A stretch of DNA of 27,499 bases, from the IMG/VR virus record IMGVR_UViG_3300020162_002577, positions 1 to 27,499 of that record; one strand, 5' to 3'. The DNA is from a virus. Of this stretch, positions 3,400 to 24,492 are shown piece by piece; position 1 is the stretch's first letter, and each line of letters opens with the position of its first letter. The notes under the pieces are model-generated. The model was not told the DNA's origin and did not search any database. It worked only from the letters and a program-made list of their open reading frames with translations. Made by a program: the position numbers and the translations under genes.

Positions 3400-4233
3400 C
3401 TAGGTCAGGAGCGGAGCGGAGGGGGGAGAGAAACTGGAAACCGGAGACTTGAGACCTGAAACATCTTCCGCTTCCCATTTGCCGAGGGGGCATCTTTCGG
3501 TCGCCATGCGTAACTTCGCCCACGTCGAGCATCCGCATTTGCGGCAGCGGCCCGTGGCGTTGAGTGCCTGCGCGTCCCATTCGGGACAGGCGCGGCACGT
3601 TGCTTCGCGGGTGGCTAGTGCTTCGGGTGGGGTGGGAATAAAATTTGACGCTGCAAATTTACGAATAGCAAACCCAACATTTTTCATTTGCTCCCAAAGT
3701 GTAGGGTTAGATTCTGTTTGAGATTCTGCTAATGTTTGTGGTGCTTTAATGCTTTCGTATAAATCAAAGTCATCCTTGTAGATTTCACGGAGTTTGTCGG
3801 AATACGGAAAATTAATCTCTTTATCGTAAATCTTTGGTGGTTCTCCGAGGTCTAGCGTTCCCCAAAAATGCTCAATATGATCTGTTGCTTTCCAAAGATA
3901 GATCGGCTGCCCACCCCATTTTAAAAATCTTGATTGCGGAAAAAAATGAAATGACGGGAACTTTCCTTGAGCTACTAATTTCACCGCCTCCTCTGGCTCA
4001 ATGCCGTCTTCGTGACAGGCGGCAATAAATCTCTTGATTGGGTCCCCCAATAATAACGCAACGGGATTACTTGGTGTATTTTTGTATCCCTTAATAATGA
4101 AATGAGGCCGAAATGGAATAACGCCTTGGTTTTTTTTAATCCAAATTGCATTAACAATTTCTGTGGAAAATACTTTCCAGTTATAAGCAACATCAAATCC
4201 CCCGTATTCACAATATGAAAATCTGAAAATCAT
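3400..4233 (-). CDS. Sulfotransferase-like protein with C-terminal zinc-ribbon (277 aa)
   Basis: The N-terminal 190 residues resemble small sulfotransferase-family domains: 'LLLGDPIKRFIAAC' (compare 'vRdPveRfvSay'), then 'HFFPQSRFLKW' and 'LREIYKDDFDLYESI' (compare 'l..iY..Df.ly'). A clear PAPS 5'-phosphate loop is not visible, so catalysis is uncertain. The C-terminus has a Cys-rich unit, CRACPEW ... CRKCGC ... CPLGKW, a zinc-ribbon tail seen on some phage proteins. The final 20 residues (LKSPVSSFSPPSAPLLT) are encoded by degenerate heptamer repeat DNA (3430-3465) and look like a late extension. The gene directly abuts its upstream neighbour (TAAATG). Its 5' two-thirds is markedly A+T-richer than the flanking fibre genes, suggesting separate acquisition. 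Host-surface or virion modification is possible but unproven. Confidence 0.5.
   Translation of the reverse strand: MIFRFSYCEYGGFDVAYNWKVFSTEIVNAIWIKKNQGVIPFRPHFIIKGYKNTPSNPVALLLGDPIKRFIAACHEDGIEPEEAVKLVAQGKFPSFHFFPQSRFLKWGGQPIYLWKATDHIEHFWGTLDLGEPPKIYDKEINFPYSDKLREIYKDDFDLYESIKAPQTLAESQTESNPTLWEQMKNVGFAIRKFAASNFIPTPPEALATREATCRACPEWDAQALNATGRCRKCGCSTWAKLRMATERCPLGKWEAEDVSGLKSPVSSFSPPSAPLLT
3430..3465. repeat. Degenerate heptamer repeats (GAAACTT-type)
   Basis: About five tandem 7-base units, GAAACTG, GAAACCG, GAGACTT, GAGACCT and GAAACAT, lie at the 3' end of the sulfotransferase-like gene and encode its last residues. Related units recur at 4859-4897 and, in inverted orientation, near 4974-4993. 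Confidence 0.5.
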
Positions 4234-4839
4234 TTAAGGAGATGGGGTAATAGTAATACTAAAAGATGCGGTTGCGGTTGCATCAAGATTATAGATTCCA
4301 AAACTTATGCTTCCTGCCGAAGTTGCTATTGTTCCTGGTCCAACTTGAGTAAATTCTACAGGGCCACCTCCCCCAGCAGCATCATAGCCAGAGTTAATAA
4401 AAAAACCTACTGTATAACAAATCTCAAATGGATTATTCCAATCGGGAACTGAAGAAAAACATGATCCGCCACCAGAATAGGCAATCCTATATTCAGTCCC
4501 AACTTTCGCAATGTCCCAATAAATAACGAGGCTTGAATTATAGGGAGAACCATCAGCACTACACGTCATACCGCCCCCAACAACAGCAAATCCAGAGCAA
4601 AGTGATGCATTTCCTCCTGCAGTTCCAGAAAATGAACATCCCGTGTATTCGCTTCCTCCACCAGATCCGCTTACCGATCCACCAGATCGTAATGCGTCAA
4701 ACATTGCCTCTGAGATTACAATATAAGAATCAGTAATTTCTGGACACGGCGGAACACAACACGCGCACTCGACCGCGCGAGTTGCGCCGTTGTCGGTTTT
4801 GATTTTCACTGCGCCGGATGATGTGAGGCCGAGGGTCAT
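4234..4839 (-). CDS. Putative tail protein, Gly/Ser-rich with N-terminal Cys cluster (201 aa)
   Basis: Unrecognised family. It begins MTLGLTSSGAVKIKTDNG, followed by a compact cysteine cluster (ECACCVPPC, about residues 24-32). A long Gly/Ser/Cys-rich beta-type region follows (SGGSVSGSGGGSEYTGCSF and more). There is no membrane segment. The composition and position between tail-tip and fibre genes suggest a virion tail component. Its coding DNA, apart from the first 100 bases, is A+T-rich, like the start of the next gene. It is translated in series with the sulfotransferase-like gene: its stop TAA is followed immediately by ATG. Confidence 0.5.
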   Translation of the reverse strand: MTLGLTSSGAVKIKTDNGATRAVECACCVPPCPEITDSYIVISEAMFDALRSGGSVSGSGGGSEYTGCSFSGTAGGNASLCSGFAVVGGGMTCSADGSPYNSSLVIYWDIAKVGTEYRIAYSGGGSCFSSVPDWNNPFEICYTVGFFINSGYDAAGGGGPVEFTQVGPGTIATSAGSISFGIYNLDATATASFSITITPSP

Positions 4840-5254: not shown

Positions 5255-7939
5255 TTAGAACGGGATGAACTCGGTGCGGCGAATGGCTTTGACTTCAAAA
5301 TCGCTGAACGCCAATCCCCATGTGGCAGTGACTTCGTCGATTTCACCGTAGTTGGCGCGGGACAAGGATAAGAGCTGTGCGAGTGACGCCATAGCGGTAT
5401 CGGGCGCGGGCGAGATTGTCGTGAAGCTCCGAATAGTGCCTCCGTTACCTTGCTGAAAAGTGGGCGCAAATATTTGCAAAAATTCCGCGAATGAACCATA
5501 GCTCTCGGAAGTCGTGGTGTTCGTTATTTCAAATGTATCGAACTTGATCGGCTCGGATGGGAGGCCGATCTCGGTCATTGACGTTGACTCTCCAATGGTG
5601 AAGCGCTTGGTGATGGTGTCCGACAAAATCCGCAAATTAAAAATCCATGGCGCAAGATTTGGCCCGCGATTTAAAGTCATGGAAACTGAGGAGAGTTGCG
5701 TGCCGAAAACCGTAGGCACATCGACTGGCACACTGATGGATTTCCGACCCGCAAACCCCGTGATGGAGAATTTTGCAAATCCGGAAGTGTCATAATTCTG
5801 CGCGGCGGAATCTTTGCTGATGTGGTCGGGGAAATTTGGCAACGCCATTCGGGCCTGCAATAGACGCGAGGCGCTCGCGGCATTTGGGGTAGGGCAAATG
5901 TATTCAGCCGAAACTACCGAGAGGCCTGAGTCACTGGTCTGGCGCTGGTGGCTAATGAGCTGGAGGTTTTTGTTGCCGCGATAAATATATGCGGACTTTA
6001 AAACTCGAAGCTGGAGGCTTGTCGACGTCGAGCTGCCGCCGCCGGAGACGGTGATGGCTACCGAGAGCGGCGCAATAACCGAGCTGGGGGTCCATGTGAT
6101 TTCGCCTGTTGAGGAGTTGATCGTCGCGCCGGTGGGTAACCCTGTGGCGGACCACGCTGAGGCGGGGCTATTTTGAGGGTTCTGGAGGCGGGGAAAATAG
6201 CTCAACGGAAAGTTTAACCAGGCGTCGATCTTTTGATTTGGGTCGATGGCCGGAATCCCCGGGGCTATGACGAAATTCACCGTCTCGGTGGAAGATCCGA
6301 AGACGCTGAAAACCGTGACCGCCAACGAAAACGAGCCGACCTTGTTAGGCGTGCCGATTAGCGCGCCGTCGTCGGCAATTTCCATGTAAAATGGCAAGCC
6401 GACAGCTTTAAAATACAACGGAGGTGCGCTTATCGCGTCGAGGGCGAGCGATACGGAGAGAGGCACATCTACTCGCCCCGTGATGGTTTGGTTGGCATTA
6501 ATAACGGCGAGACCACCGACAATGCGGATTGTGAAAACCGCACTGGCATTCGATCCGTCACCGCCCAAAGCATTGATGGTTGGGTTGAATGTGCCGACTT
6601 CTGTTGGCGTGCCTGAAATGAGGCCCGTCGAGCTGATAGTGAGTCCTGCTGGGAGTCCGGTCGCACTCCAATTGGACGCTGGTGTGGCGCGTTGGTCATA
6701 GACGGTGCACTGGCTTTCAAACTCCTGCCGCGCCGGAATAACAAAATTGCCAATGTTGATGTTTGGCGTGCCGCCTACGCCGCCAAACGAGATGCTGGCA
6801 TACGGGCGCGGAAAAAATATGCTGCGAGACTCCATATTAAACCCTGGAGCGAACATCTGCGCGGAACCGTCTGATTTTAGTGCATAAACATATTGCGGGT
6901 GGCCGAAATCCGCAGTCCCTGAAGAAAAAATCTTTGTGAATCCAGTTCCCCCAATCACCTCCGTCCAATAATAGCCGAGGTTGTCCCAATTTAGGACGCT
7001 GCCATTTGAAAAAACAACAGAGCTGACAGATCCCAGCGATGATACTGAAACAACCGAGCCTTGTCCTGAAATAGGGCCACCTTGTCCTCCTACGACAAAG
7101 ACCGTGCCGTCTGTTTTTCTAATCATCAACTGCGAAGAGCCTACCGCCAACTCAGCCACAGTCCCGCCAATGCCCGTTATGAGAGCAGGCGTTCCAGATA
7201 TGTTGGAGTAAACAGAACCGTCTGTTTTTTCTACCGCCCATTGATTGCCATCACCATAATTTGTTGCAATTTTACGGACATTGGTATTGACGGTTACACC
7301 TCCCACCACGCCGTAATCCGCATCGCCAAAGCTTGTTCGGTTCCACTCATAGACAACGCCGCTGGATCGCAATCCATAAAAAACTTGGTTGTAATGGCTG
7401 CCCCTCACGCCAATTTTTGTAACGGGAAATGTTGGGATGTTGGGGAAGGCGACTCCACCGGTAGGTGATACTGGATCGCCGACAATTTCAACCATGCCAG
7501 AGCTCTTGCGAGCTATAGTATTGCTCCGGCTATGAGGGTAATCAGGCACCGTGAATTGGCACGCTTGCACATAGTCGCCATAAGCGATCTGTGTTTGAGC
7601 TATCCGTGCATCGGTATTGTATTGGCCTGCGGAATAAGCCTGACAAGACAGAATAACGCCGTCGGTAGTTACGCCCAACACGGCATAGCAATAGACCTTT
7701 TGAAAACTGCAGCCTGATGGAATTACTACAAATAAATCCGCCCACGTTGATTGATAGGAAACTTTTGCATTTCCACTATAAATTTTACTAAGCGTACCGG
7801 AGAGCACGCCTGTGCTTGGGTCAATGCCAATGAACTCTGGCGTATCTGCTAAGAATCCGGTATGTGGAATGGTAGTTAATACGGGCGCGGTAAATGGCAC
7901 GCCAACGACGGGGTTGAAAATTTGTCCTGGTGTAATCAT
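5255..7939 (-). CDS. Large tail-tip protein with Ig-like (He_PIG-type) and RCC1-like repeats (894 aa)
   Basis: Residues about 8-55 (VVGVPFTAPVL ... IDPSTGVLSGT) and three further units between about 395 and 650 carry the He_PIG pattern 'W.a.GLP.Glt..s.TG.isGTP...G'; examples are 'WSATGLPAGLTISSTGLISG' and 'WSATGLPTGATINSSTGEIT'. Between about 170 and 385 are repeated 'Y.LkSdGsV' type units (YGLRSSGVVYEW, VEKTDGSVYS, IRKTDGTVFVVG, YALKSDGSAQMF), which suggest an RCC1-like beta-propeller. The last ~240 residues are unassigned. It follows the tape measure with an ATGA overlap, the usual place for distal-tail or tip proteins. A role in host contact is likely; the enzymatic role, if any, is unknown. 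Confidence 0.7.
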   Translation of the reverse strand: MITPGQIFNPVVGVPFTAPVLTTIPHTGFLADTPEFIGIDPSTGVLSGTLSKIYSGNAKVSYQSTWADLFVVIPSGCSFQKVYCYAVLGVTTDGVILSCQAYSAGQYNTDARIAQTQIAYGDYVQACQFTVPDYPHSRSNTIARKSSGMVEIVGDPVSPTGGVAFPNIPTFPVTKIGVRGSHYNQVFYGLRSSGVVYEWNRTSFGDADYGVVGGVTVNTNVRKIATNYGDGNQWAVEKTDGSVYSNISGTPALITGIGGTVAELAVGSSQLMIRKTDGTVFVVGGQGGPISGQGSVVSVSSLGSVSSVVFSNGSVLNWDNLGYYWTEVIGGTGFTKIFSSGTADFGHPQYVYALKSDGSAQMFAPGFNMESRSIFFPRPYASISFGGVGGTPNINIGNFVIPARQEFESQCTVYDQRATPASNWSATGLPAGLTISSTGLISGTPTEVGTFNPTINALGGDGSNASAVFTIRIVGGLAVINANQTITGRVDVPLSVSLALDAISAPPLYFKAVGLPFYMEIADDGALIGTPNKVGSFSLAVTVFSVFGSSTETVNFVIAPGIPAIDPNQKIDAWLNFPLSYFPRLQNPQNSPASAWSATGLPTGATINSSTGEITWTPSSVIAPLSVAITVSGGGSSTSTSLQLRVLKSAYIYRGNKNLQLISHQRQTSDSGLSVVSAEYICPTPNAASASRLLQARMALPNFPDHISKDSAAQNYDTSGFAKFSITGFAGRKSISVPVDVPTVFGTQLSSVSMTLNRGPNLAPWIFNLRILSDTITKRFTIGESTSMTEIGLPSEPIKFDTFEITNTTTSESYGSFAEFLQIFAPTFQQGNGGTIRSFTTISPAPDTAMASLAQLLSLSRANYGEIDEVTATWGLAFSDFEVKAIRRTEFIPF

Positions 7940-10065
7940 ACGAGCACGGTTTGCGGAAGCTTAGGTTCGATTTTTTTGACGAGGTCGAGGATGGATTGCA
8001 CGAGGGAGTCGAGGGATTGGGGTTTACTGGACGAAGGGGATTTTCCGCTTGGTGAACCGTCTTGGCCTGGCTTGTCGATGCTGGGTTTCCCCTCGCCCAT
8101 TCGACGAGGCTTAGGTTGTCCATAGTCGCCGTCTTCGCGGGCGGCGCGGACTCGCTCGCGGAATGCGTTTGAGTCTTCGCCGAGCTTGGCACTGAGGCCG
8201 TAGTCTTTGCCGATGTCGGCGAGGGCGCGGCGGTCTTTGTTTGCCCCGATGCCTCGGAGATTGACCTCGGCCTCATTATTGGCGATCTTTCCAGCAGTGC
8301 GGCGGGCTCCAGAGAAATCTCCGGCGGCCATCTGGTCGGCTGCTTTTTTTGCGAGCTTGCCGCCCTTGTCCACGGCGTCTTTGGCTTCGGACTTGGTGAC
8401 GTCCTCGAGGAGTTTCGCGGAGGCGGAGAGCTCCTCTTTCATTTTTTTTGCACTGCCTTCGGCTTTGGAAAATGAGGTGGCGACGGATTCGGCGTCCCCG
8501 GCTGCGCCCTTGGTTTTGCCTTTGGCGTCTTCGGAGGCTTTGGCGGATGCCTCGAAATCTTGGCGGAGCTTGGTGCCGATGGAGGTGACTGATCCCAACT
8601 TTTCTGCGGCTTCGGCGGCGGCGGGTGCAGCGCCGAAGAAATCCTTTGCTGATGGCTCGATGGTAGAAATTACATTCTTAAAACCATCGTTGATCGATTT
8701 AACGCCAGATGAGAGGTTTTCACGATAACCATCTGCGGCAGCGCCAAGTCCGGCTGATACTTTATCGAGAACAGATCCGGAGGCGCCATCAAATGCCGAT
8801 TGAAATTTACCGGCGCCACCTTGCGTCACTGCATCGAGCCCACTTTTAAATTTGCCCGTCACAAATCCAATAGGGTCCGACATTGCGTTTTTGAAATCTT
8901 CTGCAAACCCGCTAACGAATTTTTGAAATCCTGTTGAGAAAAATGAAACGACCGCGTTTACCGCTGCTGAGAATCCCTCCTCGATCATTCTGGCGCTGCT
9001 GATGATAGCATCGATGAGGCCTTTTCCAAAAGTGGTGTAGACCAAACCTAAGGCCGATCCCATTGTTTTTATAATCTCAAAAGGCAATCCGCTAGTTAAG
9101 TATTTTCCCAAAAATTCCGAAGCCGTTATGAATCCGTTGAGAAGAGCATTCCCTGTTATTTTTATGCCAGCCATTAGCCCAAGTCCGATGGCCTCGATGG
9201 CAGGCATGGGTGCCTTGAATGCGCCAATGAGGAAATCTGCCACGCTCATGACTTGCTTCATGAGGGCTGCGCCCCACCCGGCTGCGTCGACGCCACTGAG
9301 GGCGCTGGTAAATAAGTTGAGGGCAGGCAGGGCGCTTTCGATAAATCCGGCGGCGAACTCCATCGTTTTTGAACCCATCGCGGAGAGGTTGTCTCCGAGG
9401 CTGTCGAAAGCTTCGGCACTGCGGTCCATAACGTTAGGCATGTCGCCGAGTTGGCCTTTGGCTCCTTCGATCTCGGCACCGAAATTATTGAGAAGCGGGA
9501 GGAGCTCGCCGCCGGATTCGCCGAAGACCTCCATCGAGGCGCGGGCGCGTTCGGCGGGGTCGGAGATGCTGGCGATCTTGCCAGCGAGGACGCCCATCTG
9601 CTCGGTCGGCGTCTTGCCAGCGAGATCCGACATCGACACGCCAAGGGCATCGAGTGTGGCGGTCTGATCGGCTCCGCCTGCGGCGGCATCGGTCATGAAT
9701 TTCTGGAGCTTATTGACGGAGGTGCCGACTTTATCTGCTCCGACGCCGGTGTTTTCAAAGGCGCGTTGGAGCACCAGGAGATTCCCCGCGCTTTCGCCTG
9801 TGCGGGAGGAGAGGTCGTTGAGTTTGCCGCCGAGATCGATGGCGTCGCCGAATCCATCCACCACGGCGCGAGCGCCTGCGGTGGCGGCCTCGATGGCGAG
9901 CATGCCCACCTTGACTGCGGCACCGGCGATGGCTGCGGCACCGGCGATCTTGCCGAATGAAAGGTCGAAGCCTTTGGCTGTGTCGTCGGCTTGGCTGCGG
10001 ATGCCGGAGAGGGAACTGCTGAGGCCTTCGTCCTTGGCTCCTAATGTGACGGTGATGTCACTCAT
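7936..10065 (-). CDS. Tape measure protein (709 aa)
   Basis: Long, Ala/Gly-rich, mostly helical protein in the tape-measure position directly after the chaperone pair. It has an N-terminal coiled region (residues 1-50), then a hydrophobic stretch 'IAGAAAIAGAAVKVGMLAIEAA' (about 39-60). The phage minor-tail signature follows: 'LNDLSSRTGESAGNLLVLQRA' and 'EQMGVLAGKIASISDPAERA'. Several hydrophobic segments lie in the centre (residues about 240-380), and the C-terminal third is Lys/Glu-rich. Tape measures set tail length and help DNA pass the host envelope. At about 700 residues it predicts a tail of roughly 100 nm by the usual 0.15 nm per residue rule (family knowledge). ATGA overlaps join it to both neighbours. 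Confidence 0.9.
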   Translation of the reverse strand: MSDITVTLGAKDEGLSSSLSGIRSQADDTAKGFDLSFGKIAGAAAIAGAAVKVGMLAIEAATAGARAVVDGFGDAIDLGGKLNDLSSRTGESAGNLLVLQRAFENTGVGADKVGTSVNKLQKFMTDAAAGGADQTATLDALGVSMSDLAGKTPTEQMGVLAGKIASISDPAERARASMEVFGESGGELLPLLNNFGAEIEGAKGQLGDMPNVMDRSAEAFDSLGDNLSAMGSKTMEFAAGFIESALPALNLFTSALSGVDAAGWGAALMKQVMSVADFLIGAFKAPMPAIEAIGLGLMAGIKITGNALLNGFITASEFLGKYLTSGLPFEIIKTMGSALGLVYTTFGKGLIDAIISSARMIEEGFSAAVNAVVSFFSTGFQKFVSGFAEDFKNAMSDPIGFVTGKFKSGLDAVTQGGAGKFQSAFDGASGSVLDKVSAGLGAAADGYRENLSSGVKSINDGFKNVISTIEPSAKDFFGAAPAAAEAAEKLGSVTSIGTKLRQDFEASAKASEDAKGKTKGAAGDAESVATSFSKAEGSAKKMKEELSASAKLLEDVTKSEAKDAVDKGGKLAKKAADQMAAGDFSGARRTAGKIANNEAEVNLRGIGANKDRRALADIGKDYGLSAKLGEDSNAFRERVRAAREDGDYGQPKPRRMGEGKPSIDKPGQDGSPSGKSPSSSKPQSLDSLVQSILDLVKKIEPKLPQTVLV

Positions 10066-10832
10066 TGCTGGAGCTCGGCTTGCTTGGCTTTTTCAAAGCG
10101 GATGGCGTGGTTCATCATAGAAATCATTTTCTTTTTGGCGAGGTTGACGGCAAAAGATTCTCCACTCGCATCGAGGGTGGCGCGGGCGTAGCCGACGGAG
10201 TTTGTGATGTCTATGGAAAAGCCGAAGCCTTCTTTTTGCAGGAGAGCGGAGACCCTGCCGGATGCCTTGGGCATGTTGCGCTTGACCCACGCGGGGATGC
10301 CCTTGAGGGGCTCGCGCACGTCGGCGTTGCACTTCTCGGCGACGATGGCCCATCCGGCTTTGGCAAGGCCGACTTTTTTTAAAGTCTCTTTGAGATACTT
10401 GCGATACGTGGCTTGCTTGACGAGAGCGCGCTCGAGGAGGCCGAGGCGGTTGGTGCGCCCTGCGGCGTTCTTGTGCGACTTGTGCCAATCTTTTGCTGCT
10501 GACATATCAGCCACCTGAGTCTGCGTGTCGGTCGCCCAGACGATGCCGGAGCGATTGTGGATGGCAGCGCCGCCGGAGGAGAAGGCGGTGCCTTTGGTGA
10601 CCTCTTTCCACCAGGAGGGATTCACGATCGTGAAGAGATTGCGCAGGTCGCCTGCGATTTGCTTTTCTCCGGCTTGCTTGTCTTTTGGCGCGGTGGCTTT
10701 CAAACACTCGATGGCACAGAGGCGGGCGGCATTATTGACAAGTTGCCCGATCTCTTTGCCCGTTATCTCCTCATACTTCTTCATTTTCCGAAGAAATTTC
10801 TGGTTGTCGACTTGGATTACGGGCTTTGCCAT
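10062..10832 (-). CDS. Putative minor tail protein (256 aa)
   Basis: Basic, soluble protein beginning MAKPVIQVDNQKFLRKMKKYEEITGKEIG. It has a helical N-terminus ('LVNNAARLCAIECLKATAPKDKQAG') similar in style to HK97-gp10-like/minor tail components, which open with a helix bundle followed by 'a..lv..aK...P..tG'. The rest is unassigned. It stands between the T extension and the tape measure and shares a 4-base overlap with the latter. The start is ATG at 10832, 3 bases after the T-frame stop. The family call is tentative; the coding status is firm. Confidence 0.6.
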   Translation of the reverse strand: MAKPVIQVDNQKFLRKMKKYEEITGKEIGQLVNNAARLCAIECLKATAPKDKQAGEKQIAGDLRNLFTIVNPSWWKEVTKGTAFSSGGAAIHNRSGIVWATDTQTQVADMSAAKDWHKSHKNAAGRTNRLGLLERALVKQATYRKYLKETLKKVGLAKAGWAIVAEKCNADVREPLKGIPAWVKRNMPKASGRVSALLQKEGFGFSIDITNSVGYARATLDASGESFAVNLAKKKMISMMNHAIRFEKAKQAELQQ

Positions 10833-10835
10833 TTT

Positions 10836-11461
10836 TTAGAGTTTCGAGAAAACGCTTTCTATTTCGGCGAGGGAGTCAAAATGAGCCTGCGGATTCTCGC
10901 GCAGATAAACGCGAGGAATGCCGCGAGCGAATGAATCGGCGTCCAGTATCTGCAACCCGGCAGCATAAGGGATCTCCCACATGATATCGTGAAATCCCCA
11001 ACCGGTGACACTGGCGAGTCTGTAAACATAGGAGGAGAGCCAGTTGGGGGATGCTACTTTCCCGAGGTGGTGCTCCCGGGGGATTGGTGTTGGGCTTTTG
11101 TCTCGGCGGCGTTCACGCGATTCCATGCGGCTCCGACAATGGCTGAGAGTTCGTCCTGGGCGGCGATGCTGTCGAGGTTGTCGAGTTGCCAGTGGCGGAC
11201 GGCGCGGTTGAAGGCGATGGCGTCGTTGTCCACGGCGAGCACGTCCTCGAGTGGAGCGATGTGGACGAAGGCGAAGGCGGCGACGAACCAGAACTCGTCG
11301 CGCTTCTCGAGCATGTTGGACCGGATGATGGAGATCGTGCCAGGCACGCAGGGGCGCATCTTCCACTTGGAGGCTTTGCGGGTGCCTTCGCGCATGCCTG
11401 CTTCGCGGAGGGCTTCGTCGTCAGTTTCGAGTTCGTCTATGGTATCGGTGTTTTTTTTCAT
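10836..11461 (-). CDS. Tail assembly chaperone GT fusion, made by -1 frameshift (about 208 aa)
   Basis: This is the long product of the chaperone pair. It shares the 135 residues encoded at 11461-11057 with the short form. It then continues in the -1 frame from GTA at 11057 for 73 more residues (VASPNWLSSYVYRLASVTGW ... ESVFSKL) to TAA at 10836. The T frame has no good start codon of its own near the junction. Its content 'YRLA.VTGW.f.dI.WEIP' is typical of the T portion of phage tail chaperones, which recruits the tube protein while the G portion coats the tape measure. The shift site is described at 11057-11063. It is the same arrangement as lambda G/GT. Confidence 0.8.
11054..11461 (-). 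CDS. Tail assembly chaperone, short form G (135 aa)
   Basis: The zero-frame product starts MKKNTDTIDELETDDEALRE and ends AQHQSPGSTTSGK, followed by TAG at 11056-11054. It is an acidic helical protein with a 'MLEKRDEFWFVAAFAFVHIAPLEDV' core, placed between the tail tube region and the tape measure, which is where the G gene sits in lambda-like phages. The ATG at 11461 follows an A/C-rich leader (TAAACCCAACGAAACC) with no Shine-Dalgarno sequence. The last sense codons GGA AAG belong to the slippery site. A much longer upstream reading of this frame exists but overlaps the preceding gene and is low-complexity, so I chose the internal ATG. Confidence 0.75.
   Translation of the reverse strand: MKKNTDTIDELETDDEALREAGMREGTRKASKWKMRPCVPGTISIIRSNMLEKRDEFWFVAAFAFVHIAPLEDVLAVDNDAIAFNRAVRHWQLDNLDSIAAQDELSAIVGAAWNRVNAAETKAQHQSPGSTTSGK
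11057..11063 (-). promoter_or_regulatory. Programmed -1 ribosomal frameshift site (GGGAAAG)
   Basis: The minus strand reads G GGA AAG TAG in the G frame. This is the X XXY YYZ heptamer, identical to the slippery sequence of lambda gene G. The stop codon follows directly. Slipping back one base continues into the T frame as GTA GCA TCC. Confidence 0.85.
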
Positions 11462-11474
11462 GGTTTCGTTGGGT

Positions 11475-11864
11475 TTAGATAAATTTTGCGAAGCGCTTTT
11501 TGTCGGCCTCGGTGGCGTCTTCGCTGATCGAGATGATCTTGCCGTTGCGCTCGAAAACGATCTGGCGAGGTGTGGATTTAATGACGGCAACGAGCGAATC
11601 GCGGTTGCGTAGGACGGCGAGCATGTAGGCCAGTGGCGACTCGGGGGCGGCGGCAACAAAATCGGCCCCTTCCGAGAAGGAGCGCATGACCTCATCGGCG
11701 ATCTGCCCTGTCGGGGACTTTGAGATGAAGTGGAAGACGGTGGACTCTTCGCCGGACTCGCGCCGAATGCGGGAGGCGGGGGAAGAGGGAGATTCAAACT
11801 CGAAGCCGAGCGTGCAAAGAATCGCGGCCAGCTTGATGTCGCGAGTGGAAAATACAGATTTCAT
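11475..11864 (-). CDS. Hypothetical tail-region protein (129 aa)
   Basis: Starts MKSVFSTRDIKLAAILCTLGFEF and ends DKKRFAKFI. Mixed alpha/beta composition, with no motif I recognise. The segment 'ADEVMRSFSEGADFVAAAPESPLAYMLAVLRNR' looks helical. It lies between the putative tail tube gene and the tail chaperone gene. In lambda-like phages this place is taken by tail-assembly proteins, so a role in tail assembly is plausible by position only. The gap to the upstream tube gene (54 bases) holds a 9-bp hairpin. Confidence 0.55.
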   Translation of the reverse strand: MKSVFSTRDIKLAAILCTLGFEFESPSSPASRIRRESGEESTVFHFISKSPTGQIADEVMRSFSEGADFVAAAPESPLAYMLAVLRNRDSLVAVIKSTPRQIVFERNGKIISISEDATEADKKRFAKFI

Positions 11865-11918: not shown

Positions 11919-12281
11919 TTAGGACATTGTGGCCACGTAGGATTTCGCGGTGAGCGAGACGGTCTCAAATTGCTCGGAGGCGAATTTGGATTCCAATCCT
12001 GTCACGATAGTCGTTGCACCGAGAGTCACTGAGGCAGGCATGACCACGGCGAGAGTCGCTCCGACCGTCGCGGTGAATGTGCCGGTGCGCATGCCTTCGA
12101 TGCTGATCTCTTTGATCGGCTCCGCTACGGCGACGGCGACCACTGACCCTTGGTCGTCCTTCACCTCGGTGAGGGCGGCGGATTCATTGACGCTGAATGA
12201 GGTAACAATGAGGCCTGAGATCGAGGGCGTGCCATAAGTGGCTGATCCGAGGGCGGTGGTGGTGAAAAGATTTGCGGCCAT
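11919..12281 (-). CDS. Putative major tail (tube) protein (120 aa)
   Basis: A small beta-rich protein: MAANLFTTTALGSATYGTPS, then 'FSVNESAALTEVKDDQGSVVAVAVAEPIKEISIEG' and 'GTFTATVGATL'. The 'tevkd..G.vvg......i.eisieg' pattern resembles short tail-tube or tube-like proteins that form hexameric rings. It sits between the tail-completion gene and the chaperone pair, as expected for a tube gene. The leader before the ATG is A/C-rich (CTCAACCCACCAATTC) followed by a run of A. A TTTGACA word lies 39 nt upstream, overlapping the stop of the preceding gene. Confidence 0.65.
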   Translation of the reverse strand: MAANLFTTTALGSATYGTPSISGLIVTSFSVNESAALTEVKDDQGSVVAVAVAEPIKEISIEGMRTGTFTATVGATLAVVMPASVTLGATTIVTGLESKFASEQFETVSLTAKSYVATMS

Positions 12282-20456: not shown

Positions 20457-22082
20457 TTAGTTGAGGACCTCGAGTGTGTAGAGTCGCTGGCGGTTCTTTC
20501 CCTGCTGGCCCCACTTAACGACGCGCCCAGTCGGCAGCGTGAACTTCTTGCCGCCGTATGCTTCAGCGAGGAGCTTACCGAACTTCGACTTTGCTCGAGC
20601 CGTGAGGACGTAATGCCGAGGGCCATCCTTGCCTTCACGCTCCTCCTTACCTTCGAGCAACCAGGTGAAGGAGTTCACATCGAGCGCTGCCTGCACCACG
20701 GTTTGGAAGTCGAACTCAGCCACATCGTCCACACCTTTTGCCAACTCAGCCACCAGGGCGACCATATCCGCCAACTCCGAGTTACCGGACTCCTCGACAG
20801 GAAGAGGTTCGATAGGGTCTCCGAACCCAGCAAACTCCACCATACCGGCGAAGATCTGACACCATTGTTCATATCCGCGAACCAATCGCTTGGCATGGGG
20901 GCGGCCTGCAGCATCCCACTCGCGCACGATGGCCCACAGACAGGCGAGGAGCTGAGACCGGACCTCGGGACGCTCGAGCCACTCGTCGCTCATCACGTTC
21001 TCGATCTTGCGCGCTTGGGGATCAGACTCATCCGTCATCATTTTGCAGTGTAAGAAGCGGCGGGCCACGTCAGGCGATACCTCGAGGTTGTTGCCTGTCA
21101 GGAACACACTGGCGATCTTAGGCACTGCAAACTTCTGTTGGGAGTGCATACGGCGGCCAGACCATGTGGGAGCAGTCAGAAAAGCATTAAGGATCTGGCT
21201 TTTGAAAAAACCATTGCAGTCATCGAATAGGATATAGGGAGAGCCTGCTAGGGATTCTGTATCGAGGATCTTCCTCCACTCTTCCTCGGCAGACGGCACA
21301 GGCTGGACGTCACAGGAGCCGATAGTGGTGATGATGGCGAGCTGGGCCAGCAACGTCTTCCCAGATCCAACTGAGTTCGAGCTGAACATGAAGTTGAGAC
21401 GGCGGGCCGATGGTCTGAGCAGTGGGGCCGCATACATGCCAAGCATAGAAGCTAGGACAATGGCCTCATTGCGCGATCCTCCATCTGATCGACGATCCCC
21501 AAATGGGAACTCCTTGAGCAGATTCCTCAACACCGTCTTGGCCTCATCTAGTGGCATATCATGAGCGAACTCCACCCCCGAGTTCTGCGTGTATGTCTGC
21601 GCCTCGGCATCATAGCCATAGTCTAGCAACTCCACCCGGCCATCCTTTCGCTTCACCGGCTGCCGAACCGTGGCAACACGCATGAGCTCACGTTGCCGAG
21701 ATAGGAACTGATCAGACTCAAGGATCGTCGCGGCAGACTCCACCGTCATAGTTTGAGCCTTCTTTTCAAAAACATTCGGGGATGGGGTTGCCCACTTGAA
21801 CGTCACAAGATGCTCTTCGCAATAGGTACGGAAGCGGCGCGCCGTCATCTCCACCAACCGCCCATCTGGCGAAACCGTCATGGCCGCACGCTGCCGGACA
21901 AAGACTCCATTCTGACACAATACCCCACCGATCTCTCTCGCCATCGACGAGATCACCGGCTGGAGCTCAATGTAGGGGAGAGCATTCGTCTCCGACTTGG
22001 GTTGCGTCTCTTCCTCACTGGGGTGAGGGGTGATTCCATATTCCGCCAATTTGCTGTTAATAGTATCAGATAATTTACTCAC
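20457..22082 (-). CDS. Phage replicative helicase, AAA+/SF3-like (541 aa)
   Basis: The C-terminal two-thirds is an ATPase of the D5/SF3 type: Walker A 'SNSVGSGKT' (235-243), Walker B 'YILFDD' (283-288), a sensor motif 'FLTGNN' (327-332) and an Arg-finger-like 'DVARRFLH' (338-345). The N-terminal 200 residues probably hold a primase-linked or DNA-binding part. The last 60 residues include a small 'RHYVLTARAKSKFGKLLAEAYGG' domain, perhaps a winged helix. The start is GTG at 22082, overlapping the primase stop by 8 bases with AAAGG upstream. Together with the primase it would replicate the phage genome; the iteron-like cluster is just downstream of its terminator. Confidence 0.75.
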   Translation of the reverse strand: MSKLSDTINSKLAEYGITPHPSEEETQPKSETNALPYIELQPVISSMAREIGGVLCQNGVFVRQRAAMTVSPDGRLVEMTARRFRTYCEEHLVTFKWATPSPNVFEKKAQTMTVESAATILESDQFLSRQRELMRVATVRQPVKRKDGRVELLDYGYDAEAQTYTQNSGVEFAHDMPLDEAKTVLRNLLKEFPFGDRRSDGGSRNEAIVLASMLGMYAAPLLRPSARRLNFMFSSNSVGSGKTLLAQLAIITTIGSCDVQPVPSAEEEWRKILDTESLAGSPYILFDDCNGFFKSQILNAFLTAPTWSGRRMHSQQKFAVPKIASVFLTGNNLEVSPDVARRFLHCKMMTDESDPQARKIENVMSDEWLERPEVRSQLLACLWAIVREWDAAGRPHAKRLVRGYEQWCQIFAGMVEFAGFGDPIEPLPVEESGNSELADMVALVAELAKGVDDVAEFDFQTVVQAALDVNSFTWLLEGKEEREGKDGPRHYVLTARAKSKFGKLLAEAYGGKKFTLPTGRVVKWGQQGKNRQRLYTLEVLN

Positions 22083-23282: not shown

Positions 23283-23448
23283 TGTGGGAGTCGTGTGGGA
23301 GTATCCCGCAAGTGCAACAAAATCAAGAAGTTCAACTGCCCTGTGGTGTAATGGTAAGGATGGCGACACTGCATAAGGCGTTGATTCACAGCAATAGCTT
23401 GCATCGTTTTGCAACATTTTTGTTGAGGTATGTGGGAGCATGTGGGAG
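23283..23448. other. Candidate phage attachment region (attP) with paired arm repeats
   Basis: TGTGGGAG occurs four times, as two close pairs: 23283-23290 and 23294-23301 (11 bp apart), and 23431-23438 and 23441-23448 (10 bp apart). The pairs flank about 130 bases next to int. One-turn spacing of paired direct repeats on both sides of a core is the pattern of arm-type integrase sites. The core contains CTGTGGTGTAATGGTAA (23341-23357), which resembles the 5' part of bacterial tRNA-Gln genes, and an inverted repeat CAACATTTTTGTTG (23412-23425). Confidence 0.55.
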
Positions 23449-23457
23449 TTTGATGGC

Positions 23458-24492
23458 ATGGCACACTTGATTCGCAGCGATAAGTCTCGTTTCTGGATTC
23501 TGAGGTCCAGAGATCTGGATACGGGACGATGGAGAGAACGCTCCACCAGATGCGATGCGGAGGACTCTAAGGCGACTCGCCGAGCGCAGCGTATGGCGGA
23601 GGATGCGACGAGGCTGGAAGCGCAAGTCGGGCCTACCATCAAGGGTGAGTTTAGCGCTTGGGTTCCTGACTTTCTCGAGCGGCACTTCACGAATGTTCGA
23701 TCGTTGAAGCGGTATCGGCTGGCTTGGGCGAGGCTCTCGGAGTGGCAACGCTTGAGACGGGTGCGGCATCCGGCGGCGGTACGTTTTGAGCATGTGCAGG
23801 ACTTCCTTGATTGGAGAAGGGCAGATGGGGCTTCGCAAAATACGGCCCGGCTGGAGTTGAAGTTTTTCTCCTTCGTCATGCAGGAGGCCATGCGCCGCGA
23901 GTGGGCTGATAAGAATCCGCTGGCGTTGGCTAAGGTGCCGCGTAAGGCATCGAAGGTGAAAAAAGAAATCAACGACGATGAGTTTAAGGTGGCTCGGCAG
24001 GCGTTTACGGCCCGCGACGGCGCGCCTTGGATGCTCACTGCTTTTGAGATCTGCGCGAATCTAGGCTGCCGATTCTCCGAGTCGGAGTTTGGGAAGGATG
24101 CGGTCGATTTTGATAAAGGCATGGTGACTATTGTGGATTCAAAGAGGGATGACACAGACCCGAGGAAATCTTTTTGCGTGCCTCTTCCTGCTACTTTGGC
24201 CGCCCATCTGAAGGGGGTATTTGAGAAGAGAGACCGCACTACCCCACCGCTCGGACTGAGCGGGGAGCATAATAGGCAGTTCAACAAAACGCTGAAGGAG
24301 GCCACGGGCGCGACCTCCCATTCGTTGAGGGTCTCCTTCGTCACTCGTTGCCACCGAGCGGGGCTGACGGAAGCGCAGGCCATGCGACTCACGAACCACT
24401 CCACTCGTTTAGTGCATTTGATTTATTCGCGGTTGAATTTTTCGGATGCTCAGGATGCGGCTGCAAAGGTGCCCCCGCCTGGTGGGATATAA
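23458..24492 (+). CDS. int: Tyrosine recombinase / phage integrase (344 aa)
   Basis: All the catalytic residues can be seen: R205 (GCRFSES), K229 candidate (VDSKRDD), H288-x-x-R291 (SHSLRVSF), H314 (LTNHST) and nucleophile Y323 (HLIYSRL). The N-terminal 60 residues form an arm-binding-like domain (HLIRSDKSRFWILRSRD), and residues 60-160 are the SAM-like core-binding domain. ATG at 23440 is also in frame, but it is within the att repeats and has a ribosome site only one or two bases away; ATG at 23458 has GGGAG at a suitable distance. The gene is convergent with the excisionase-like gene and overlaps its 3' end by 104 bases. It catalyses integration and excision at attP. Confidence 0.92.
   Translation: MAHLIRSDKSRFWILRSRDLDTGRWRERSTRCDAEDSKATRRAQRMAEDATRLEAQVGPTIKGEFSAWVPDFLERHFTNVRSLKRYRLAWARLSEWQRLRRVRHPAAVRFEHVQDFLDWRRADGASQNTARLELKFFSFVMQEAMRREWADKNPLALAKVPRKASKVKKEINDDEFKVARQAFTARDGAPWMLTAFEICANLGCRFSESEFGKDAVDFDKGMVTIVDSKRDDTDPRKSFCVPLPATLAAHLKGVFEKRDRTTPPLGLSGEHNRQFNKTLKEATGATSHSLRVSFVTRCHRAGLTEAQAMRLTNHSTRLVHLIYSRLNFSDAQDAAAKVPPPGGI

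Follow-up and report, generated by a model that had tools for sequence, protein, structure and literature searches.

Gene order and the G/T frame break

The window, i.e., the entire 27,499-nt stretch of an IMG/VR virus record that was analyzed here, carries on its minus strand a gene for a putative G-like tail chaperone, the end of which is joined by a second, T-like frame in the -1 register (Table 1). The gene order is putative tail tube, G/T, one further gene and tape measure, which places G/T between a tail tube gene, itself weakly identified, and the tape measure gene. As reported in an earlier, sequence-only reading of this DNA, GGGAAAG is present at 11063-11057, is divided by the G frame into the slippery phase G GGA AAG and is immediately followed by TAG (11056-11054), and a slip of one base back would connect G to a frame of 73 residues (11057-10839, stop at 10838-10836). 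The latter frame opens with GTA GCA TCC CCC AAC TGG and its predicted product reads VASPNWLSSY...VFSKL.

Table 1. Features of the G/T locus and of its neighbouring genes, in positions of the window.
Feature	Positions	Strand	Remarks
Tape measure gene	7936..10065	minus	Downstream; PHROG tail length tape measure, E 1e-22
Gene separating T from tape measure	10062..10832	minus	No PHROG or Pfam match
T-like -1 frame	10836..11057	minus	73 codons plus stop (10838-10836), predicted to be read only after the slip; dN/dS 0.144-0.169
Downstream hairpin	10996..11049	minus	5' arm 11049-11040, 3' arm 11005-10996; spacer to the heptamer 7 nt
TAG, G-frame stop	11054..11056	minus	Abuts the heptamer
Putative slippery heptamer G GGA AAG	11057..11063	minus	GGGAAAG in 32/50 loci, GGGGGAG in 18/50
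SD-like GGGAG	11073..11077	minus	Located 9 nt upstream of the heptamer; may stimulate from the 5' side (suggestion)
G-like tail chaperone gene	11054..11461	minus	ORF, 135 aa, ATG at 11461, 3' end TCG GGA AAG TAG
Putative tail tube gene	11919..12281	minus	Upstream; weak Pfam Phage_tail_2 match, E 0.044, below the curated cut-off

The bare string GGGAAAG is not enriched in the window (four found, 5.5 expected), and the weight of the site derives from its phase, its position relative to the stop and its conservation. In-phase heptamers of the X XXY YYZ type occupy 30 of 7490 codon positions in the genes of the window, GGGAAAG accounting for two of these. The second in-phase GGGAAAG (20496-20502, minus strand) is located approximately 46 nt before the end of a 541-aa gene (20457-22082); it is probably a chance occurrence, since the -1 frame at this position, while open, runs through a terminator-like hairpin.

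Neither G nor T returned a Pfam or PHROG family match, and profile comparison by hhalign detected no homology to lambda G or lambda T. Furthermore, a search of solved structures with the G alignment, a comparison of the low-confidence AlphaFold model of G (all helical, pLDDT 67) with the PDB and viral models, and a tblastn search of 50,697 phage records with the G-T fusion all failed to return a (significant) match. ORFs of the G/T type are known to share little sequence across phages (PMC5009743), and the G-T fusion is a gene for annotators to add, being missed by current family libraries. Two further genes lie in this region. One (11475-11864, minus strand) separates G from the putative tail tube gene, encodes 129 aa and has no clear family. 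The other follows the tape measure gene (5255-7939, minus strand); its 894-aa protein gave no PHROG match and, by eye, looks repetitive.

Conservation of the frame break and constraint on the T frame

Scans with T and G, in addition to one genome scan, provided 50 usable loci, the window included, on contigs from many metagenomes and one MAG; 48 relatives of the G gene were obtained, at 67-99% identity. The frame break occurs at the identical base in all 50 contigs, and TAG directly follows the slip site in all relatives found, with one contig (L033) stopping after TA. The alignment of related phages that had been proposed as a check on the heptamer returned GGGAAAG in 32 of the 50 loci, while showing that it is not fixed, as a clade of 18 carries GGGGGAG. 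The codon that supplies the first G of the heptamer (Ser, Gly or Ala) ends in G in 32 of 32 GGGAAAG loci, against 13% for codons of the same kind elsewhere in the G gene, although these loci are related and do not represent 32 independent events.

Downstream of the TAG, pN/pS is 0.22 in the -1 frame versus 1.4-2.7 in the other two frames, and the dN/dS of T is 0.144 in GGGAAAG loci and 0.169 in GGGGGAG loci. The -1 frame is thus under purifying selection and is the sole constrained frame. The first T codon, for valine, is GTA in all 23 loci tabulated, whereas GTA represents a minority of the valine codons in the structural genes of the window (35 of 298); this invariance fits selection to keep TAG in the other frame. 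With respect to initiation, 20 of the 50 loci are devoid of ATG, GTG and TTG between the upstream stop and the end of T codon 20, and in one locus (L039) just three codons are open upstream of T in the -1 frame. The statement that T lacks a start of its own consequently holds for these 20 loci but not for the window, where an ATG (11126-11124) is preceded at 4 nt by GGAG; this start is not kept among the relatives. A coding downstream -1 frame without a conserved start is the arrangement of lambda-type G/GT genes.

Taken together, the in-phase heptamer at the stop, its conservation across 50 loci, the constraint on the -1 frame, the start-free loci, the partial covariation in the downstream hairpin (see below) and the gene order argue for a lambda-type programmed -1 ribosomal frameshift that would produce G and G-T tail chaperones, a reading to which we assign a probability of roughly 93% and which leaves the earlier proposal of such a shift well supported. 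Slippage itself, its rate and the chaperone role are inferred.

Other explanations of the two frames fare poorly against the same data. If T were a separate gene, it would be started inside G in the -1 frame or be reinitiated at the G stop, and the window's ATG, with its GGAG, would indeed yield a product of 96 aa. This ATG, however, overlaps a G-frame Ala-Trp pair (GCA TGG) and can be ascribed to the choice of alanine codon; together with the 20 start-free loci and the three open codons of L039, this marks it as incidental. Moreover, the opening residues of T, which are out of reach of any start in the start-free loci, are among the most conserved. An independent T start was accordingly rejected and is considered very unlikely. 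Readthrough of the TAG, in place of its bypass by a shift, could draw on a zero frame that remains open for 64 codons beyond the TAG in 44 of the 50 loci, yet this frame displays a pN/pS of 1.36-1.69, i.e., no constraint at the protein level, and its constant length is attributable to the conserved T sequence; readthrough was rejected on this basis as highly improbable. That the two frames reflect an assembly or sequencing error, or that T is a decayed remnant, is suggested by nothing other than the frame break itself. With the identical break in contigs of so many origins, and with T under purifying selection, conservation refutes this explanation in practice and its probability is negligible.

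Elements flanking the heptamer

A hairpin with an 11-bp outer stem, formed by CCCCCAACUGG with CCGGUUGGGGG, and a smaller inner helix begins 6 nt past the heptamer in most relatives; in the window the spacer is 7 nt, as the outermost pair (11050/10995) is C-A and is not formed. Among 35 distinct sequences, 97% of outer-stem cells are paired and the covariation score exceeds that of all 500 shuffles. Covariation is nevertheless partial, with one covarying outer pair; eight of the 11 outer pairs never vary across the relatives and are uninformative in this respect. The covarying pair, at columns 14/69, is CG in 24 sequences, GC in seven, GU in one and unpaired in three; it flips via synonymous changes in Ser (TCC/AGC) and Gly (GGG/GGC) codons, and its GC form occurs in both heptamer clades. 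Folding energies are less telling: for its composition, the window hairpin is unremarkable (z -0.98), and relative to synonymous shuffles it scores z -0.21 (L015, z -0.99), while the fold was more stable than the average of such shuffles in eight of ten loci tested, with z values of -1.5 to -2.7. As the single-sequence folding energy is weak in the window, the argument for the hairpin relies on the alignment of relatives, which places a conserved, putatively stimulatory structure a few nucleotides after the heptamer. An Rfam search returned no match.

On the 5' side, GGAG, GGAAG or a similar Shine-Dalgarno (SD)-like motif is found within 20 nt upstream of the heptamer in 36 of the 50 loci, including all 18 GGGGGAG loci, mostly at a distance of 9-10 nt and against a coding background of 11%. 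Such motifs (GGAG, GAGG, AGGA, GGAAG) were observed within 20 nt upstream of none of 21 start codons on the minus strand of the window, and within 20 nt upstream of none of the G starts in 48 relatives. The 16S sequence in the MAG that contributes one of the loci is partial and ends short of the 3' region that would hold the anti-SD. The -1 heptamer of Escherichia coli dnaX is likewise flanked by an SD-like element, approximately 10 nt upstream, and by a hairpin a few nucleotides downstream, although dnaX is an unrelated gene and the SD-like element of the present phages is absent from 14 of the 50 loci. Given these 14 loci, and the relatedness of the remainder, a role of the element as 5' stimulator of the shift is offered as a suggestion only.

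Proposed shift, its two slip sites and known systems

GGGAAAG, as present in the window and 31 other loci, is a canonical X XXY YYZ heptamer on which both tRNAs can re-pair in the -1 frame. Under the frameshift reading, most ribosomes would terminate at the TAG, yielding G (135 aa). With tRNA-Gly on GGA and tRNA-Lys on AAG, and with the ribosome delayed by the hairpin 6-7 nt downstream, a minor share of the tRNA pairs would shift back by one base to pair with GGG and AAA, thereby bypassing the TAG, and the shifted ribosomes would complete a G-T fusion of 208 aa. If these proteins act as in lambda, the tape measure protein would be coated by G while the T part would bring in tail tube subunits, and both would be absent from the finished tail.

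Toward the 3' end of its G gene, lambda carries the identical heptamer, read in the same phase; its -1 frame likewise has no conserved start, and its G/T genes are flanked by those for the major tail protein and the tape measure. It differs from the phages studied here in that its stop follows 15 nt past the heptamer (0 nt here), in that an extra gene separates T from the tape measure gene here, and in the absence of detectable sequence homology. G_GGA_AAG is highly prone to shifting in E. coli; the G/GT shift is common among phages and conserved in spite of low sequence similarity (PMC5009743). The view that distant phages have kept one solution is not supported, since 18 of the 50 loci use GGGGGAG and homology to lambda G/T was not found. 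These results give no basis for claiming that the site was inherited from a common ancestor; as few slip sites are efficient in bacteria, the shared heptamer may instead have arisen by convergence on one of them.

The stop had also been described as closer to the heptamer than in many relatives, which is accurate relative to lambda and to published average distances of 26-36 nt (PMC10885494) but not relative to the phages' own relatives, in all of which it is adjacent. A published precedent exists in gp18/gp19 of Burkholderia phage KL1, where the stop codon TGA immediately follows GGGAAAC (PMC3483164). The KL1 slip site is a prediction in the cited paper, and KL1 departs from the window in its stop codon and in the final heptamer base. 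A gene between T and tape measure has been reported for KL1, HK97 and SPP1 (PMC3483164).

In a phylogeny from which the slip site and hairpin were left out, a single branch (support 100/99) separates the 18 GGGGGAG loci from the others; these 18 retain the hairpin, the T frame and the TAG next to the slip site. GGGGGAG does not conform to X XXY YYZ: on G GGG GAG, tRNA-Gly would re-pair perfectly one base back, whereas tRNA-Glu would re-pair on GGA with a middle G-U. It is therefore conceivable, for this sister clade and not for the GGGAAAG of the window, that the P-site tRNA-Gly alone slips on GGGG, ahead of decoding of the following codon, or that the G run causes slippage of RNA polymerase. 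For the latter, however, five consecutive Gs are few. Tandem re-pairing remains feasible with one middle G-U, as has been proposed for GGGGGAA (PMC10885494), and these other routes are considered unlikely, if still worth consideration, for the clade. Approximately one thousand such GGGGGAA ('fivetwo') sites were described in actinophage tail chaperones using PRFect (PMC10885494); the GGGGGAG clade has the equivalent Gly-Glu arrangement, with GAG for GAA and the same tRNA-Glu G-U re-pairing, albeit in other phages and hosts and with neighbours that use GGGAAAG.

The lambda-type shift is well known and the mechanism is thus not new; the most interesting aspect is that the slip site has changed among these phages. 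We tentatively propose, while regarding it as somewhat doubtful, that GGGAAAG was swapped for GGGGGAG (or the reverse) in one lineage, which retained the hairpin, the T frame and the TAG next to the slip site. This lineage would combine its slip site with an SD-like element located 9-10 nt upstream, in a phage group whose gene starts rarely carry SD motifs. If true, this swap would constitute a natural replacement series in which the frameshift signal was rebuilt while its protein products were kept. The occurrence of two slip sites in one close-knit group, with stop and hairpin constant, furthermore offers a ready comparison of GGGAAAG and GGGGGAG.

The only match in sequenced genomes was a contig of a Verrucomicrobia MAG (L097), and the hosts of these phages are on this account probably members of the Verrucomicrobiota; the best-known phage frameshift would thereby be extended to an uncultivated phage group, probably of that phylum. 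Of note, the L097 contig also encodes, at 4154-4543, a clear relative of the 129-aa gene upstream of G, of equal length and in the corresponding place. Finally, a 350-aa frame on the plus strand of the window (23440-24492) reads by eye like a tyrosine recombinase, and if it is one, the phage would be temperate.
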